Shown piece after piece: positions 29,144-36,685 of a DNA stretch of 64,000 nt. Position 1 is the stretch's first letter. Each line of letters begins with the position of its first letter. The DNA is from Thraustochytrium sp. TN22. Its lineage: Eukaryota; Sar; Bigyra; Thraustochytrida; Thraustochytriidae. A model generated the notes under the pieces. It ran no database searches, was not told where the DNA came from, and saw nothing but the letters and a program-made list of their open reading frames with translations. The stretch is from assembly GCA_013306675.1 (NCBI GenBank), contig JABLUY010000054.1:62001-126000 (forward strand), given 5' to 3'. The position numbers and the translations under genes were made by a program.

Positions 29144-31012
29144 TTACTCCTGCAGACAGGCCCGACAGAAACGGATCGACTCCTGGACACTCTGCGTATT
29201 GGGATGGTCCGGACCCAGGGTTGCGAGACAAATGCCGGCGGCCTGCTCGTACCGGTCCAACGCCGCTGCCCAGTCCCCACGAGCTCGGTAAACCCAGGCG
29301 AGGTTGTTGAGCGAGGTCGCAGTCTCAAAGTGTGCCGGTCCGAGGGAGACCATGCGAATGTCCAACGCCTCCTCGAAGTGCCGTTGCGCCTCGTCCAGGC
29401 GCCCCTGCGCATGGTACACCTGGCCCATATTGTCCAAGGCCGCAGCCGCTTGCGGGTGCTGCGGGCCAAGATTCTCCCGGATGATATCCAACGCCGTCCG
29501 GTGACACTCAAGCGCGTCTTCGAAGCGACCCATGGCGCGCAGCACAAGGGCGGTGTTGTTGAGATACGTTGCCACAGGCACCTCCCGCGGTCCGTACACA
29601 GCCTTGATCACCTCAAGGGCTTCCTCGAAGCGCTGCAGCGCGGCCTCCAGCTTGCCCTGGCCAAAGAAGAGCGCGCCAAGGTTGTTGAGTGAGGCCGCCA
29701 CCATGGGGTGCTGTGCGCCAAACGCCGTCTGGCGGATCTCCAGCGCCTGCTCGAGGTCTTGCTGGGCCTCCTCGTAGCGGCCCAAGGCACGCTTCGCTTC
29801 GCCCATGTTGTTAAGCGTCGTCGCCACTTCTGGATGCTGAGGGCCGAGGACCTCGGTCCTGATGGTGAGCGCCTCCTCCATGCACTCAAGCGCCTCCCCC
29901 CCAAACCCTAGCTGAAAGAGAAGCATGCCGATCTGGTGCATGGCGTGGCCTGCCGACTCCATGTCGCCGCACTCGCGCCGGATCTGAGCCACCCTGTCGC
30001 GGGCGATGCCTGTGAGCCAGCCTCGGCTACGGGCCTGTACCTCCGCGTTGAGCGTACTATATCCGCCTGATAAACCGTGCACGGCGGCGTCGATCATCTG
30101 CTTGTCATCGGTCTTCCAACACTGCGCCTCGCTCATGTCCATCCGGGCTGCCATGACGACGGCGATCTGGTCCGGGTCGTGAAGCAGAGACTCCATAAAA
30201 CGATCCGCCTGGCCGGGCGTGTACGTGATGCCGAAAGGCCGGCCGCTGCGCACGGCGCCATAAATCTCCCAGACGCACCACGCGCGCTGCAGAGGGGCGG
30301 GCTCGTCCCAGCGGTCCAAGAAAACCAGCGCGTCGTCGAACTTGGTGATGGCCTCGTGGAGGCCCTCGGTCAAGATGCCCTCGCGCAGCTTCCGCGTCGC
30401 GCGGCTGGGCTGGTCTCTGCTGGTCAGCAGCGGCTGATTCGCGCAAAAGAGGTCCAGCCACACAAAGACTTGGTTCGGGTCCCTCTCGTTGAAGTGCTGC
30501 AGGAGCGCGCCCACCAGGTCCGCGAAGCGACAGCGGCGTGCCTGACTCACAAAGGTGCCCTGAAAGCGCTCACCTACGGCCCCCGGCGGCGCGGCGTTCA
30601 GGTAGATGGCCTCGTCTGGGGCCAGCTTGAGCGCGCGCGGCATCACCACGTATTCTGCCACATCCTCCGTGGTCCACTCTTCGCGCGACTTGAGCGTCAC
30701 GTCATCCTCCAGGGACACCACGAGGTCGCCTTCTTCGCGAGCTGCCCGTGCGAGCAGGCCCGCGCCGTCGATCTCGTTCACGACCAGCAAGGTGGCGCCC
30801 TTGTGCACGCGCTCGCTCAGGTCGCGCCTCGCCACGACGAGCTGCACGCCCTCCGCCAGCTTGCCATCCTGCACGCCCGTGAGCACCGCGCGCAGCAGCC
30901 GCAGGCTCACGCTGCGGTAGTCGATGATGCGCGCCTCCTCCGCGGCGTACGCCTCGTCCTTGCGCGGCCCGCTCCGCCGGCCCAGACTCCGCCGCACGGC
31001 CGCGCGCAGCAT
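29144..31012 (-). CDS. TPR-repeat protein with a TIR-like N-terminal module
   Basis: 622 residues from ATG 31012 (the frame extends to a TTG at 31027). The C-terminal half (about 340-615) holds at least six ~42-residue kinesin-light-chain-type TPRs (repeated LGPQHPEVATTLNNMG, YEEA-x4-EQALEI). The N-terminal half has a compact alpha/beta region: ADLVGALLQHF, VFVWLDLFCANQ, LHEAITKFDDALVFLD, RAWCVWEIYGAV and PFGITYTP. The order of strands and helices, with W-C-x2-E (E249) following a strand ending in Asp, parallels a TIR fold, where the Glu of WCxxEL is the NAD-cleaving residue. That assignment is inference. TIR plus TPR layouts occur in innate-immune and self-recognition proteins. The gene is head-to-head with an LRR-Roc-COR-TIR gene 1.2 kb away. 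Confidence 0.75.
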   Translation of the reverse strand: MLRAAVRRSLGRRSGPRKDEAYAAEEARIIDYRSVSLRLLRAVLTGVQDGKLAEGVQLVVARRDLSERVHKGATLLVVNEIDGAGLLARAAREEGDLVVSLEDDVTLKSREEWTTEDVAEYVVMPRALKLAPDEAIYLNAAPPGAVGERFQGTFVSQARRCRFADLVGALLQHFNERDPNQVFVWLDLFCANQPLLTSRDQPSRATRKLREGILTEGLHEAITKFDDALVFLDRWDEPAPLQRAWCVWEIYGAVRSGRPFGITYTPGQADRFMESLLHDPDQIAVVMAARMDMSEAQCWKTDDKQMIDAAVHGLSGGYSTLNAEVQARSRGWLTGIARDRVAQIRRECGDMESAGHAMHQIGMLLFQLGFGGEALECMEEALTIRTEVLGPQHPEVATTLNNMGEAKRALGRYEEAQQDLEQALEIRQTAFGAQHPMVAASLNNLGALFFGQGKLEAALQRFEEALEVIKAVYGPREVPVATYLNNTALVLRAMGRFEDALECHRTALDIIRENLGPQHPQAAAALDNMGQVYHAQGRLDEAQRHFEEALDIRMVSLGPAHFETATSLNNLAWVYRARGDWAAALDRYEQAAGICLATLGPDHPNTQSVQESIRFCRACLQE

Positions 31013-32218
31013 AGCGCTGCGTCGCAAGCCGCGGGCCCCTGGCGCGACGCCTTGCGCTCCAGCGTGAGTTTTCTAGTCCGGCTTGCGCGTTGCCCTCGCG
31101 CCGCCGCCGCGCCGCGACGCGCGCGCGCGCCGGCCCAGGTCTCGGGTCTGGCCGCGGCGCAGCGCTCTCAGGTTTCGCCGGCCTCAGGCTGCTCTTGCAC
31201 ACTCGCTCGTCAAAACTCCGCTCGGAGCCTCGGCCGCGCGTGCAGCAGTGCCCCGGGGGCGCCAACCGCTTGCGCCTGGGCTGGCGACTGCCAGGGCTGG
31301 CGGCGGCCGGCGGGCGTCGACGCGCGGCAGCCCGGGCCAGGTCGAGGCCGGGCGGTGAAACGAAACGAGCGTCGGCGGATGTGCGTCTCACATTTCTTAG
31401 CCAGCCAGTCTCCCAGGGCTCGCAGATGTTGCAGGAAGTTGGGGGGGCCTCCGTTCCCAGACTGGGGCGCAGATTTCCCGGATCTGCAGCCTGAAGGCCG
31501 CGGCGCTGCGGCGCAGCGAGGCGAGCGAGCGCGCGCGGGCGCCCGATCGTAGGCATTCGCGCGCCTGCCGCAGCGGGCCGCAGCAGGCCGCACTGGGCAA
31601 GACGCGCGCGGAGGGGGGCTCTCAGCCTTGACATGGTTCGTGCACACCGCCGCAATCAAACGCCGCTCTCAAATGCTAGCATGGCCTAGCTCCTCCTGGC
31701 TGAGAGCGCCGCTCTCAGTCAGGCCAACGCACGAGCGCGCCGCAGCGGCGGGCGGACTGCGCCGCAGCGGCGGGCGGACTGCGCCGTGCCGCGCCGCGTC
31801 GCGCCGTGCCTCTCGTCGTGCCGCGCCGTGCGGTACGCGACGCGACGATCTCGACGAAGCCCCCACCCCTACGCAGTACGCATCACGCCCGCCGCACAAG
31901 GCCAGGCCAGGCCAAGCTCGCCACGCCACCTCAGGACGCGTTGCGCTTCCCTGGTGGCGGCGGCGTGGCAGCGTCTGCTGCGGCGCCCAAGACGAGTGTC
32001 ACATTTCTTCGCTATGTCGCGCACACGTAGACTGCATCGGGCATCAAAACCATATCTCCACCCGGTCAGCGCCGGTCTGCGCCGATCTGCGTGGCCTGCA
32101 TCCCGTCTGCTCGCTCGAGCGCTCGCGCGCTCGCTCGGCGAGCGGCGAGCACCGTGGCGCAGGGCGGGGCCGTGCTTTCTCGTGACACCTCTGCTCCTCA
32201 CGGCGTAGCGGGGCAACC
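31013..32218. promoter_or_regulatory. Shared intergenic region of a head-to-head gene pair
   Basis: 1.2 kb between the ATG of the TPR gene (31012, minus) and the first ATG of the LRR-Roc-COR-TIR gene (32219, plus). No coding sequence is supported. A direct repeat of GCCGCAGCGGCGGGCGGACTG occurs twice at about 31738-31783, followed by GCGCCGTGCC-type repeats to about 31830. Both promoters must lie here, so co-regulation is possible. Individual promoter elements cannot be assigned by eye. Confidence 0.4.
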
Positions 32219-35200
32219 ATGCCGGTCATCATGCCAAGCCCCGTAGGCTACATCTTTCCCGAAACGGCGGATAAGGCTGTCCAAGCTGTCCAGGACGGCG
32301 CGACCGGTATTGGGTACGTTGCAGCAGGCGCAGATGGACAAGGGGGGCAGGCGCTTCGGAGGGCAGGGAAGCCAGAGTAGAAGTCTCCGATAGCCGCGCG
32401 ATATTTGACGGCCGCAAGCTGGCGGGCAGCGCGGCGTTGTGCACCCAAATTCGAGGAGAGCGCAAGAAGGGATTGTGGCGCGAAGCAGAGAAAGAATGAT
32501 GCAGGCGAAGGAGCGAGCGGGCACAACTAACCTTGGGCTGCCCTGGGGCTTTGCCTTATCCGAACAGGCTGGCGAACAAGCATCTAGGCGATTCTGGCGT
32601 TTCCGAGCTCGCGGAGGCGCTCAAGGGGAATGCGACTGTCGAGGAGCTGAAGTGAGTTCCTTTAGGCGCAAGCGTGGACCTTCGAATTCTGGGCTCGCCT
32701 ACGGCGCGCACCACGGACACGCGGGGGGGGGCGCTGCGAAATTTGCACGAGAGGAAGGAGAGAATTGAGGGTTGTCCTGACTGCCGCCGTTGGGTCGCAG
32801 CCTTCGTACCAACGACATCAGCTCCGCCGGTATGGTCAGCCTGGTGCAAGGGCTCTGGAGAAACACAACTCTCAGGTTCCTGAGGTGAGTTATCAGCATC
32901 AACTCTGGTGCTGTGCTAAGACCGAGGGCCTTCTGCGGCGCATTGGCCGCCGTTTTCGCGTTTGTGGCGGCTCCAACCGCGCACAAGCAAAGAAGCGAGA
33001 CGCAGAGAGCCCCATGTCTGACTGATACGCTCGACATGTTGCAGCCTCAAGTACAACATCATCGGAGACGAGGGCGCAAAGGCGGTTGGGGCCTGGCTTG
33101 AGACAAACGCGACGATCGATGAACTGCTGTACGTCAAGCGCGAAGAGGCAATTGGGTTGGATGGCTTGCAACTAGCCGGATGCTGGTAGATGGGAGGGGA
33201 AGGGGGCGAGGAGGCAGGGATGCGATCGGTAATGCCTGGTGGGGCGGGACGTCGACGCGCAGACGTTACGATTGCGATGAGACTGCCACACCTTCGCGAC
33301 CGGCTCGCGGCCAAGGGTGGACGAGTGGTGACGAGAGGTTCGGGTTGTAAAGCGGTCCGGGGCGAGGCAGGCTGGAGAGACCAGGCGAGGGTGGGTTCCA
33401 TGGGGGGCTGGCCCTAAAGAAAGAAGGGAAGAGCTTCCAAGCGCAGATTGAAATGGCACGTCGACTGACCAGTGTTGTAGGCTCTCTTGGAACAGAATCG
33501 GTGATAGGGGTGCCCGGGCGCTCGCGGACGGGCTGCGGCGCAACAGTTCCCTGACGAACCTCGAGTACGTTGAGCCGGACGGGACGCGCTCCGCGCGAGC
33601 TACCACGCTAAGACGCTGGCGGGAGATGAGCAGGGAAGCAATCGTGCCGGCTTTATGTTGCGGGCGGTCAAACTTTGAGACTGGTCTGTGCTTGCAGTGA
33701 CGAGATGGGCCTTTGCTTGGATGGACTAGGCGCGGCGCCGCGAGCTTCGAGCGCGGCGCAGAACGACGGACTGGCTGACGAAATAGCCCGCCACTGCGTC
33801 ATAACAGGCTGGACAACAATTGGATCGGCAATCTAGGCATGGAGGAGCTGGCCGGCGCCGTCGAAGAGAATGACACGCTCAGAAGCTTTACGTATGTCTC
33901 TCTGGCTGCTCTTGCTCTCCGCGGGGCGCTTATGCCATGGACCAGTCGAGGGGATTGATCCTTTGCCGCTCTTGACAGATGATTTTAGAGTTGACTTACG
34001 AGCTGCACTTTGAAACACAGCCATCATCGCAATTTTGGTGACGGCAGCATTGCAAGCGAGTTTTCTTGGAGCAGGTATGGTGCTCTCCATGAGAGGATCT
34101 ATAGGGCGCTCCATGGGGGTTCCCGATCACATGCGCAGGGCGACGAGGCGGCGACAGAAGCTGAGAGGTGGGATGCTGCGGTCCTCTCAGTGGTGCGCGG
34201 CGGTGGCAACCGCCCGTGGGGACGGTGCAAGTTGATGATCGTGGGTCAGGGCGGCTCTGGGAAGTCGTCGACGAAGCGATCGATGTGCAAGCTAGCTCCT
34301 GTGAGGGAGCACCGATCAACGCAGGTTGCTGCGGTGTTGCGAACTCGCGTGCAGGGCGAGGACCTGCACGTGATGAGTTCGGACATTGGCGAGCTGGCAG
34401 AGCACGTGCGCAAGAAGGCGCAGCTTTTACTACTGCAAGCGCCTGCGCAGTCGAGTGCCGTGCGTCGCGCATCAAACACGCTGCGTCAAGCGGCCCTGGC
34501 CCTCGGCCAACGCCTGCGCACCTCGCTACGTCGCGACTCGGGTTCCTCGCCCGCGCCTGTGGGCGCGACGGCTGGTGCGCCGCAGATTCCGGTTTTATCG
34601 GAAATAGAGACCGCGCGACGGTTCCAGCTCACGGAGGGGGATCAGGCTGTGCTGCGCGGGGAGGCCAATGTGGGATCCAACTTGAGTTTCACGATCTGGG
34701 ACTACGGCGGCCAGCAGGTGTTTTACGCGCTGCACCACATCTTCCTCACGGACAAGGGGCTGTACCTGGTTGTCTTCGACATACGCGAGATTTGTCGCCT
34801 CGAGTCGCGCGAGGCGGCGGTTCACTACCTGCGCTTCTGGCTCATGAGCATTAAGCTGCACGCACCTAGGGCGCCGATCGTGCTTGTAGGCACACACCTG
34901 GATCAGGTAAAGGGAGAAGGGGACCTTCGCGTGGTCGACCGCGTCCTGCGATCCCCCCCGCTTCGGGTTCTCTCGATGCCGACGCTAGTCAAGCCGGCGA
35001 CGTCTTACTCATTCTTTGCTGTGGACAACAGTAGTCTTGACCCCGAGCGCGCGTCGGAGCTGCGGAAGGCAGTCGTGGCAACAGCTGCTGAGCAGGAATA
35101 CGCGAAGCAGGAGGTGCCGCTGGCCTGGCTCAAGGTGCACGAGGATCTGCTACTGACACGGAGGAACTTCGTCCTGTACGAAACCGTGCTGCATCTGGCG

Positions 35201-36685
35201 GCAAGTTACGGGCAATCTGAGGCGGACGTGGACGAGATGCTGAGATACTTCCATGACCTGGGCGTGGTGGTGCACCTACGCGGTTCGGAGACGCTGGCGC
35301 GTGTGGTGGTTCTCGAGCCCCAGTGGCTGCTTGACAAGTTGGCACGCGTTATCGCGGATGACATGCACGCGCATCACGTTTTCTACGACCCGCGTCTTGA
35401 GCAGGCCCACTTGCTCGACGCATTTGTTCGCATGCGTGACGAGAACGGCGTCGCATCGCGTAAGCTGCTGGCGTGGCTTTGGAATGGCCATGAGGTCGAC
35501 TACCTCATTGCTTTCATGGAAGTCAACATGCTTCTGTGCGAGTGGCGCTTCGACACCGATGAAGATGACGATGAAGATGAGGGGCCGTACTACCTAGTGT
35601 CCGGGCTTTTGTCGGACTCGACCCGCAAGGTGATCACGACCGGCTTCGAGCGCGGCGCGTCATGTGAGCTGGACTTCTCGTCCTCCTTCCTGCCCAACGG
35701 TGTCTTTCATCGCCTCGTCGCACAGTGCGTCACGTACGCGTGCGACGACGACGAGGCCATGGCGCCCGACGTGGACTCCTCGACAGCGCGAGTCTTCTTC
35801 GGTACGGACTCGTTCCTGCTCGAGGTGGAGGATGACGTGATCCGCATCACGGTCCAACGGAATGTGGAACGACCAGTCAAGGTCTTCAAGCTGCTCGTGT
35901 CCATGTACGAGGCGCAGAGGGAGGCCCTTTTCCGAGACCTGGACCCGCAGCTTCTGCTGCGTAGCCCTCCTCCTGTCGTTCGAGTCCCGTACGAGGAGGC
36001 TGCCGCTGCGCTGCGCAGTGGCGCCCCTCGCATCCAGGGCAAGGACGATCACGGCGCCAGAACTGTTGCGGCGACTGCCTCCTTCGCACAGTTCTTTGAC
36101 GATGGCGTCGGTCCGCTCAACTCGGACGAGCGCGGTGCAGACGTGCCCCGCTACAGGGTGCCTAGACTCACGTCAGGGTTCACGAGCCACGTCTTCCTCA
36201 GCCACAAGGAGGACTTCGGTGGCGACCTCGCGCAGATGCTGTCGGACAGGCTTCGTGCCCGCGGGCTCGATGTCTGGATCTCGCAGGACTTCGCGGGCAA
36301 CCTCAACCTGCAGGCCATGATGGACGGGGTGCGGGACACGCGCACTTTTGTGCTCATCTTGACGCGTGACATCTTCCAGAGCGCCGCCGTGCGCCGTGAG
36401 CTCCGCCAGGCGGTGGACTGCGACAAGAAGATTATCTGCGTGCACGAGTCCGTGCCAGACCGCCCGGGCTACGCGCCCTTTGGCGACTACATCAAGACCA
36501 CGCCCGACTTTTGCGCCGGGCTCTTCCATGAGGAGGAGTCTCTGCCTGTGCGCCGCCGCTACTACGAAGAGGAGTCCTTCCTGGCTGAGCTAATTCGCCG
36601 AGCTCTCGCCATTTCTTGTTTTGTTTTTGCTGCTCTCTTTTCCGCCAAGAGTCGGTCAGTGTCGTCATCTTTCAAGATCTCTTGA
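32219..36685 (+). CDS. LRR-Roc-COR-TIR protein (Roco family), seven exons
   Basis: Exons assembled from the sequence: 32219-32313, 32568-32651, 32801-32884, 33045-33128, 33481-33564, 33808-33891 and 34021-36685 (1059 residues). Donors are GTACGT, GTGAGT, GTGAGT, GTACGT, GTACGT and GTATGT; all acceptors are AG and all introns phase 2. Exons 2-6 are exactly 84 nt, one ribonuclease-inhibitor-type LRR each (pattern L-x2-N-x-IGD-x-GA...L). The Roc GTPase has a P-loop GQGGSGKS at 247-254, switch II DYGGQQ at 399-404 and base recognition THLD at 463-466. A COR region follows to about 780. A TIR domain spans about 890-1030 (HVFLSHKEDFGGDLAQML), with RREL supplying E965 at the position of the NAD-cleaving Glu. 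This is the layout of a regulated immune-type switch: sensor, GTPase, effector. The ligand is unknown. The last ~30 residues are hydrophobic then Ser-rich. The start ATG has a good context (CAACCATGC). Confidence 0.85.

Follow-up and report, generated by a model that had tools for sequence, protein, structure and literature searches.

Can a protist build an immune receptor on a Roco GTPase by combining leucine-rich repeats (LRRs), a Roc-COR module and a TIR domain within a single polypeptide? The question is raised by a plus-strand gene in the window, by which we mean the whole 64,000-nucleotide stretch analyzed here (bases 62001 to 126000 of contig C403); unless another contig is named, coordinates are window positions. 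A preliminary description made from the sequence alone had proposed that this protein senses a ligand through its LRRs, switches through Roc-COR dimerization and fires a TIR enzyme. Our analysis indicates that the gene is probably a member of an expanded receptor-like Roco family with an LRR sensor, a Roc-COR dimerization switch and a TIR effector, and the family may serve an immune function.

The four domains and their order were recovered as first described. In an hmmscan of positions 34151 to 36684, matches above cut-off were found to Roc (PF08477; 9e-16, 58.6 bits against a cut-off of 27), COR-A (PF16095; 4.9e-13, 49.6 bits against 35.3) and TIR_2 (PF13676; 1.6e-11, 45.1 bits against 28). 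All three share a single uninterrupted frame (33995 to 36685), so that the Roc-COR-TIR fusion needs no splicing. The predicted spliced model consists of a putative exon 1, five exons of 84 nucleotides and a final exon and encodes 1047 amino acids; the profile check proposed for this spliced protein added LRR_6, which matched its N-terminus (by predicted splicing) at 2.4e-20, with one 28-residue LRR in each of the 84-nucleotide exons. These five exons have GT-AG borders and share phase 2 with the Roc exon. In addition, LRR_6, Roc, COR-A and TIR_2 share one unbroken frame in two paralogs, L038 (C188) and L029 (C402), which makes the order LRR-Roc-COR-TIR independent of predicted splicing. Chance or bad splicing as the origin of the fusion is ruled out by the same two paralogs.

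By a strict pattern, 49 LRR-like units were detected in 10 of 15 oriented stretches of the family, 41 of them in exact AG-84 nucleotide-GT exons. The other five stretches (C86, C406, the C288 cluster, C261 and the plus strand of C215) had no unit by this pattern, which could mean that the LRR exons are part of a different gene, with Roc-COR-TIR expressed alone, although a looser motif does pick up LRRs in C86 and C406. We regard this as very improbable, given the single-frame proteins of L038 and L029 and the five window LRR exons in phase with the Roc exon.

The NTPase of the window protein is Roc; no NB-ARC or other STAND NTPase was found in it at E up to 1. The GTP-binding motifs given in the preliminary description (GQGGSGKS, DYGGQQ and THLD) are all present, and the best PDB match of the Roc part (residues 177 to 402) was LRRK2, at 9.5e-16. 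In a profile-profile comparison with bacterial Rocos, the stretch that runs from Roc into the beginning of COR-B gave an E of 3.2e-30. PF25497, the profile of the COR-B half through which Rocos dimerize, had no match in the window protein, and homology to the start of COR-B comes from this profile-profile alignment only. The P-loop and the Pfam-matched Roc part are about 135 residues apart, much of which is an insert relative to bacterial Rocos. This long insert (34268 to 34670, between the P-loop and DYGGQ) is also found in the paralogs.

The size of the family, about forty members, is a better argument for the receptor reading than the domain order. Six-frame searches of the genome, which were run exon by exon and therefore give lower bounds, returned 46 COR-A matches (42 above cut-off), 123 TIR_2 matches and two NB-ARC matches (both above cut-off); NACHT was not searched for. 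COR-A and a TIR lie in the same frame in 38 of the 46 COR-A genes: 34 by table, C221, C229 and C11:177129 by frame and C215:26266 by alignment. The count of 34 used 76 of the 123 TIR_2 rows, and those of the 47 rows left out that are on COR-A contigs had a different open-frame length. In C265:21505 the TIR is in a frame overlapping the COR frame, and no TIR was seen for the remaining 7 of the 46.

Such numbers might also reflect gene amplification followed by decay, leaving many copies without a current function. Along these lines, COR and TIR occupy two overlapping frames in the C265 gene just mentioned, Roc is split between frames in C288 (156595), C4:66112 lies in a frame of 169 amino acids, and the P-loop is not visible in the frame read in 8 of 32 family rows, some of which are truncated where a contig or locus stops. 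However, the ratio of nonsynonymous to synonymous substitution rates (dN/dS) was below 1 in all 14 paralog pairs tested, with maxima of 0.85 for Roc-COR and 0.66 for the TIR and values of 0.29 and 0.13, respectively, between the window gene and C158. Purifying selection thus acts in the pairs tested and, with COR and TIR kept in one frame in most of the genes, decay is an improbable explanation for the family.

The comparison of close paralogs also revealed abrupt changes at the TIR border. Base identity between C158 and C11a was 95 to 98% just before this border (alignment columns 600 to 780) and 81, 74 and 87% behind it. The same break was found between C158 and C99 (94 to 97%, then 81, 73 and 83%) and between C11a and C288b (94%, then 83, 75 and 72%), but not between C158 and C288b (96 to 99%, then 97, 98 and 81%) or between C11a and C99 (92 to 99%, then 96, 99 and 95%). 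Synonymous divergence (dS) between C158 and C11a agrees with the break, being 0.094 in Roc-COR and 0.508 in the TIR. C158 is more divergent from C11a, C99 and C288b further upstream as well (81 to 90%, columns 300 to 420), near the end of its contig. In the core tree the window gene is joined by C11b and C229 (0.998), whereas in the TIR tree these two join C10, C265 and C398 (0.998). Since near-identical COR ends carry different TIRs, the break falls at the domain border and the core and TIR trees conflict, whole TIRs have most likely moved between paralogs (effector swapping). Some of the near-identical copies might be haplotypes.

Two types of TIR could be distinguished. Type 2 (n=14 aligned) is a clade with a support of 1.000 in both the TIR tree and the core tree, and type 1 (n=17 aligned, including the window gene) is the remainder; C261 belongs to type 1 and adjoins type 2 in the trees. 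Together, the alignments cover 31 of the 46 COR-A genes. Among the 15 outside them, C11:296154 (L034) has no TIR in frame, C321 and C285:9265 have a locus but were not included, and 12 were without a locus. The Glu of the RREL motif, which the preliminary description had placed at the position of the NAD-cleaving residue of SARM1, is invariant in both types (17/17 and 14/14, or 31 of 31 aligned paralogs), although its number there, 965, becomes residue 953 in the present gene model. Within type 1 it persists even where identity to the window TIR falls to 31%, in an alignment with only 9 invariant columns out of 168. The top PDB matches of the type-1 profile were SARM1 NAD hydrolases (2.1e-8), followed by bacterial and plant TIRs. 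The match to 7knq (724 residues) ends at 656, and counting back along the motif of another SARM1 chain aligns the type-1 Glu with Glu 642, the catalytic residue of SARM1. This role agrees with the account given in PMC7075850. The position of the type-2 Glu comes from the paralog and hhalign alignments only.

These alignments fit the earlier proposal of an NAD-cleaving TIR, with a weaker claim than was first stated, because the Glu is common among TIRs irrespective of activity and a Trp four residues before it is absent from all 31 aligned paralogs. The survey in PMC7075850 finds the Glu in >70% of TIRs overall, without a link to the activities reported for them; a passage of the same paper on W71 and E75 describes this Trp as contacting the SARM1 ligand together with the Glu. 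In our paralogs the position is taken by Ala, Val, Ser, Tyr or Gln (17/17 type 1) or by Asn, Ile or Ala (14/14 type 2). NAD cleavage by these TIRs is therefore plausible, at close to even chances. The TIR could instead be a non-enzymatic scaffold whose self-association, under the control of Roc-COR, recruits partners as the TIRs of TLR and MyD88 do. The replacement of the Trp in both types would suit such a scaffold, as would the frequency of the Glu among TIR groups for which no enzymatic activity is reported (PMC7075850) and a shortened BB-loop region in 5 of the 17 type-1 TIRs (L046, L016, L055, L028 and L030). It explains less well why the Glu is invariant across so divergent a set of type-1 TIRs and why the best PDB matches of these are NAD hydrolases; we see the scaffold as a real possibility that falls clearly short of even.

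Some TIR loci have arrangements of their own. Neighboring type-2 genes lie at about 22 to 35 kb of C288 (L039, L040 and L018), and two frames of C288 (1303 and 1149 amino acids) each have two TIR_2 matches flanking COR-A, which by position amounts to TIR-Roc-COR-TIR. Positions 1247 to 4627 of C160 contain four TIR_2 matches with a spacing of 1043 bases and one TGA inside each, that is, a tandem TIR array. The TIR frames L003 (C391) and L005 (C89) match the Mind-bomb-type SH3_15 (weakly in L005), with ZZ in L003, and have no Roc or COR match in the scanned part.

Returning to the receptor reading, a mechanism can be outlined from the domains. Roc-COR is presented as a nucleotide-dependent dimerization module in a passage of PMC6337361, and NADase activity of oligomerizing TIRs is described from other systems, such as TirC of Dictyostelium (PMC13142454). 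In the most likely reading, the N-terminal LRRs, with one repeat per symmetric exon, would act as a variable sensor, and ligand binding to them would shift the monomer-dimer equilibrium of Roc-COR. This shift would assemble the attached C-terminal TIRs, which might then target NAD+ or a similar nucleotide, or bring in partner proteins, leading to a signal or to cell death. The protein is a Roco, not an NLR, but would work like a TIR-NLR.

Several observations weigh against this mechanism or against a receptor function. Besides the missing Trp, the shortened BB-loop regions and the P-loops not visible in some family rows, the type-2 profile matched solved TIRs weakly (best 0.0013), in a match that stops short of the Glu. 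Diversifying selection on the LRR exons was not seen in five comparisons of 54 to 108 codons (dN/dS 0.2 to 0.8). Finally, no defense-type domain appeared in the 10 further window open reading frames (ORFs) scanned, out of a window with 31 ORFs of at least 400 amino acids. The family might be used in general stress or developmental signaling and not in immunity. LRRK2, the best-studied Roco, has no known role in recognizing pathogens. In brown algae, responses to abiotic stress are described for several LRR-ROCO genes (PMC11378527). However, the copy number, the different TIRs on near-identical cores and the modularity of the LRR exons would be more usual of receptor repertoires than of housekeeping signaling, and we hold a stress or developmental role to be rather unlikely.

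Viral contigs were scanned with the window protein and genome contigs with the protist alignment, in both cases with no relatives found. With bacterial Rocos as the query against the genome contigs, the best 80 of 522 relatives were retrieved, with a leaning to cyanobacteria. Among the loci of this set, 73 had at least 60 residues after COR, and these C-termini contained TIR_2 in 26 cases and CHAT in 9. The premise of the preliminary description, that Rocos usually carry a kinase or no effector, was thus incomplete. CHAT, a caspase-like domain, ends bacterial Roc-COR proteins such as L081, L110 and L117 and appears as an alternative effector in the TIR slot. Whole frames with LRR, Roc, COR and TIR were found in cyanobacteria, in one Planctomycetota and in one Myxococcales genome, and the LRR-Roc-COR-TIR order of the protist gene occurs among the bacterial LRR-Roc-COR-TIR and LRR-Roc-COR-CHAT proteins (e.g., L098, L112, L078, L136 and L138). 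The five bacterial plasmid Rocos that served as the query were LRR-Roc-COR proteins without a TIR.

The TIRs of both groups were compared through set A7, which takes in 13 of the 25 bacterial C-termini found by TIR profile; the remainder, either truncated or belonging to a second kind, do not enter the Glu and Trp counts. The protist type-2 TIR matched these 13 bacterial Roco TIRs at 3e-8, and type 1 matched the bacterial profile weakly, at 1.3e-4, compared with 4.1e-8 between type 1 and type 2. As in the protist paralogs, the bacterial TIRs have the Glu (13/13) and lack the Trp at -4 (0/13). For the bacterial LRRs the top-scoring profile is LRR_8, LRR_4 or LRR_14, while LRR_6 scores lower or is missing. 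Unlike the window gene, the bacterial Rocos have one continuous frame and a clear COR-B match and lack the long insert behind the P-loop. An origin of the protist fusion in a bacterial one would agree with these comparisons, which fall short of proof. More tentatively, and at somewhat less than even confidence, we propose that Roc-COR replaces NB-ARC/NACHT in this organism, giving some forty GTP-driven NLR-like receptors diversified by single-LRR-exon shuffling and TIR swapping, with an ancestry in bacterial LRR-Roc-COR-effector (TIR/CHAT) conflict systems.

The LRR-Roc-COR-TIR architecture is not unique, given the bacterial proteins found here and the eukaryotic ROCO-TIR proteins in print. 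The passages cited name a TPR-ROCO-TIR of Chondrus crispus (PMC11378527) and describe two TLR-like proteins of Aplysia that contain ROC and COR, besides other Aplysia TIR proteins bearing ROCO domains (PMC9334734). A figure legend of PMC4104024 has TIR among the ROCO domain partners. All combine Roc-COR and TIR in one protein, and the two TLR-like Aplysia proteins have LRRs; however, they amount to few genes each, with other sensor or accessory domains and no large repertoire described in those passages. The candidate immune receptors of brown algae (PMC11378527) are likewise a large eukaryotic LRR-Roc-COR family with one LRR per phase-2 exon, but their LRR exons measure 72 bp against 84 nucleotides here, and they are LRR-ROC-COR only, without the TIR that the window gene adds. 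A literature search with spellings of the ROCO-TIR fusion returned only PMC11378527. Neither a large LRR-Roc-COR-TIR family nor bacterial Rocos with TIR or CHAT appeared in the titles or abstract starts among the matches listed, in which subscription journals are thinly covered, so that absence from print is not established. What is new here is the size of the repertoire, its modularity and the scarcity of NB-ARC.

Two other systems help to place the family. Plant TIR-NLRs also combine sensor repeats, a nucleotide switch and a TIR in one protein, but their switch is an NB-ARC ATPase and that of the window gene a Roc GTPase. They too have many paralogs, and their TIR is N-terminal and their LRR C-terminal, the reverse of the order in the window gene. 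SARM1 shares with type 1 the C-terminal TIR and the aligned Glu, but has ARM and SAM modules, no Roc-COR, and keeps the pocket Trp. If the receptor reading is right, single-celled eukaryotes would have an NLR-like immune repertoire driven by the type of GTPase engine found in LRRK2, the Parkinson's disease protein. The family would then offer a system for asking what Roc-COR dimerization does, with an easily measured TIR output in place of a kinase, and would link eukaryotic Rocos to a bacterial group with TIR or CHAT effectors in the same slot.

Table 1. Features of the LRR-Roc-COR-TIR gene, in window positions
Feature	Position	Strand	Remarks
Putative first exon, ATG to phase-2 donor GTACG	32219..32313	+	ATG/open frame and donor only; no recognizable domain
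LRR exon 1, 84 nt, phase 2, GT-AG	32568..32651	+	LRR_6; missed by the stricter LRR pattern
LRR exon 2, 84 nt, phase 2, GT-AG	32801..32884	+	LRR_6 and strict LRR pattern
LRR exon 3, 84 nt, phase 2, GT-AG	33045..33128	+	LRR_6 and strict LRR pattern
LRR exon 4, 84 nt, phase 2, GT-AG	33481..33564	+	LRR_6 and strict LRR pattern
LRR exon 5, 84 nt, phase 2, GT-AG	33808..33891	+	LRR_6 and strict LRR pattern
Final exon with Roc, COR and TIR in a single open frame; stop codon 36683-36685	34057..36685	+	
Roc P-loop GQGGSGKS (G1)	34244..34267	+	
Pfam-matched Roc part, with G3 DYGGQQ and G4 THLD	34673..34903	+	
COR-A; start of COR-B-like stretch follows	35117..35521	+	COR-B-like part by profile-profile alignment with bacterial Rocos only
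C-terminal TIR domain (TIR_2)	36191..36451	+	
Invariant Glu codon (RREL), residue 953, aligned with SARM1 E642	36398..36400	+	

The genome comprises 37.9 Mb (37.89) in 453 contigs, and the GC content of the window is 65 to 69%. Bacterial contamination of the contig is ruled out by the introns and by the sperm-tail NYD-SP28 and Brix proteins encoded in the same window, the former of which suggests that the host is a flagellate. A photosynthetic alga as host is unsupported, with no Chloroa_b-bind match in the 37.9 Mb. The Roco gene is adjoined by a gene for a TPR-rich protein on the minus strand (29147 to 31072). The N-terminal half of this protein is without a listed domain; its best matches (25 of 29 families listed) all begin at or after residue 377, with TPR_12 at 1.7e-84.

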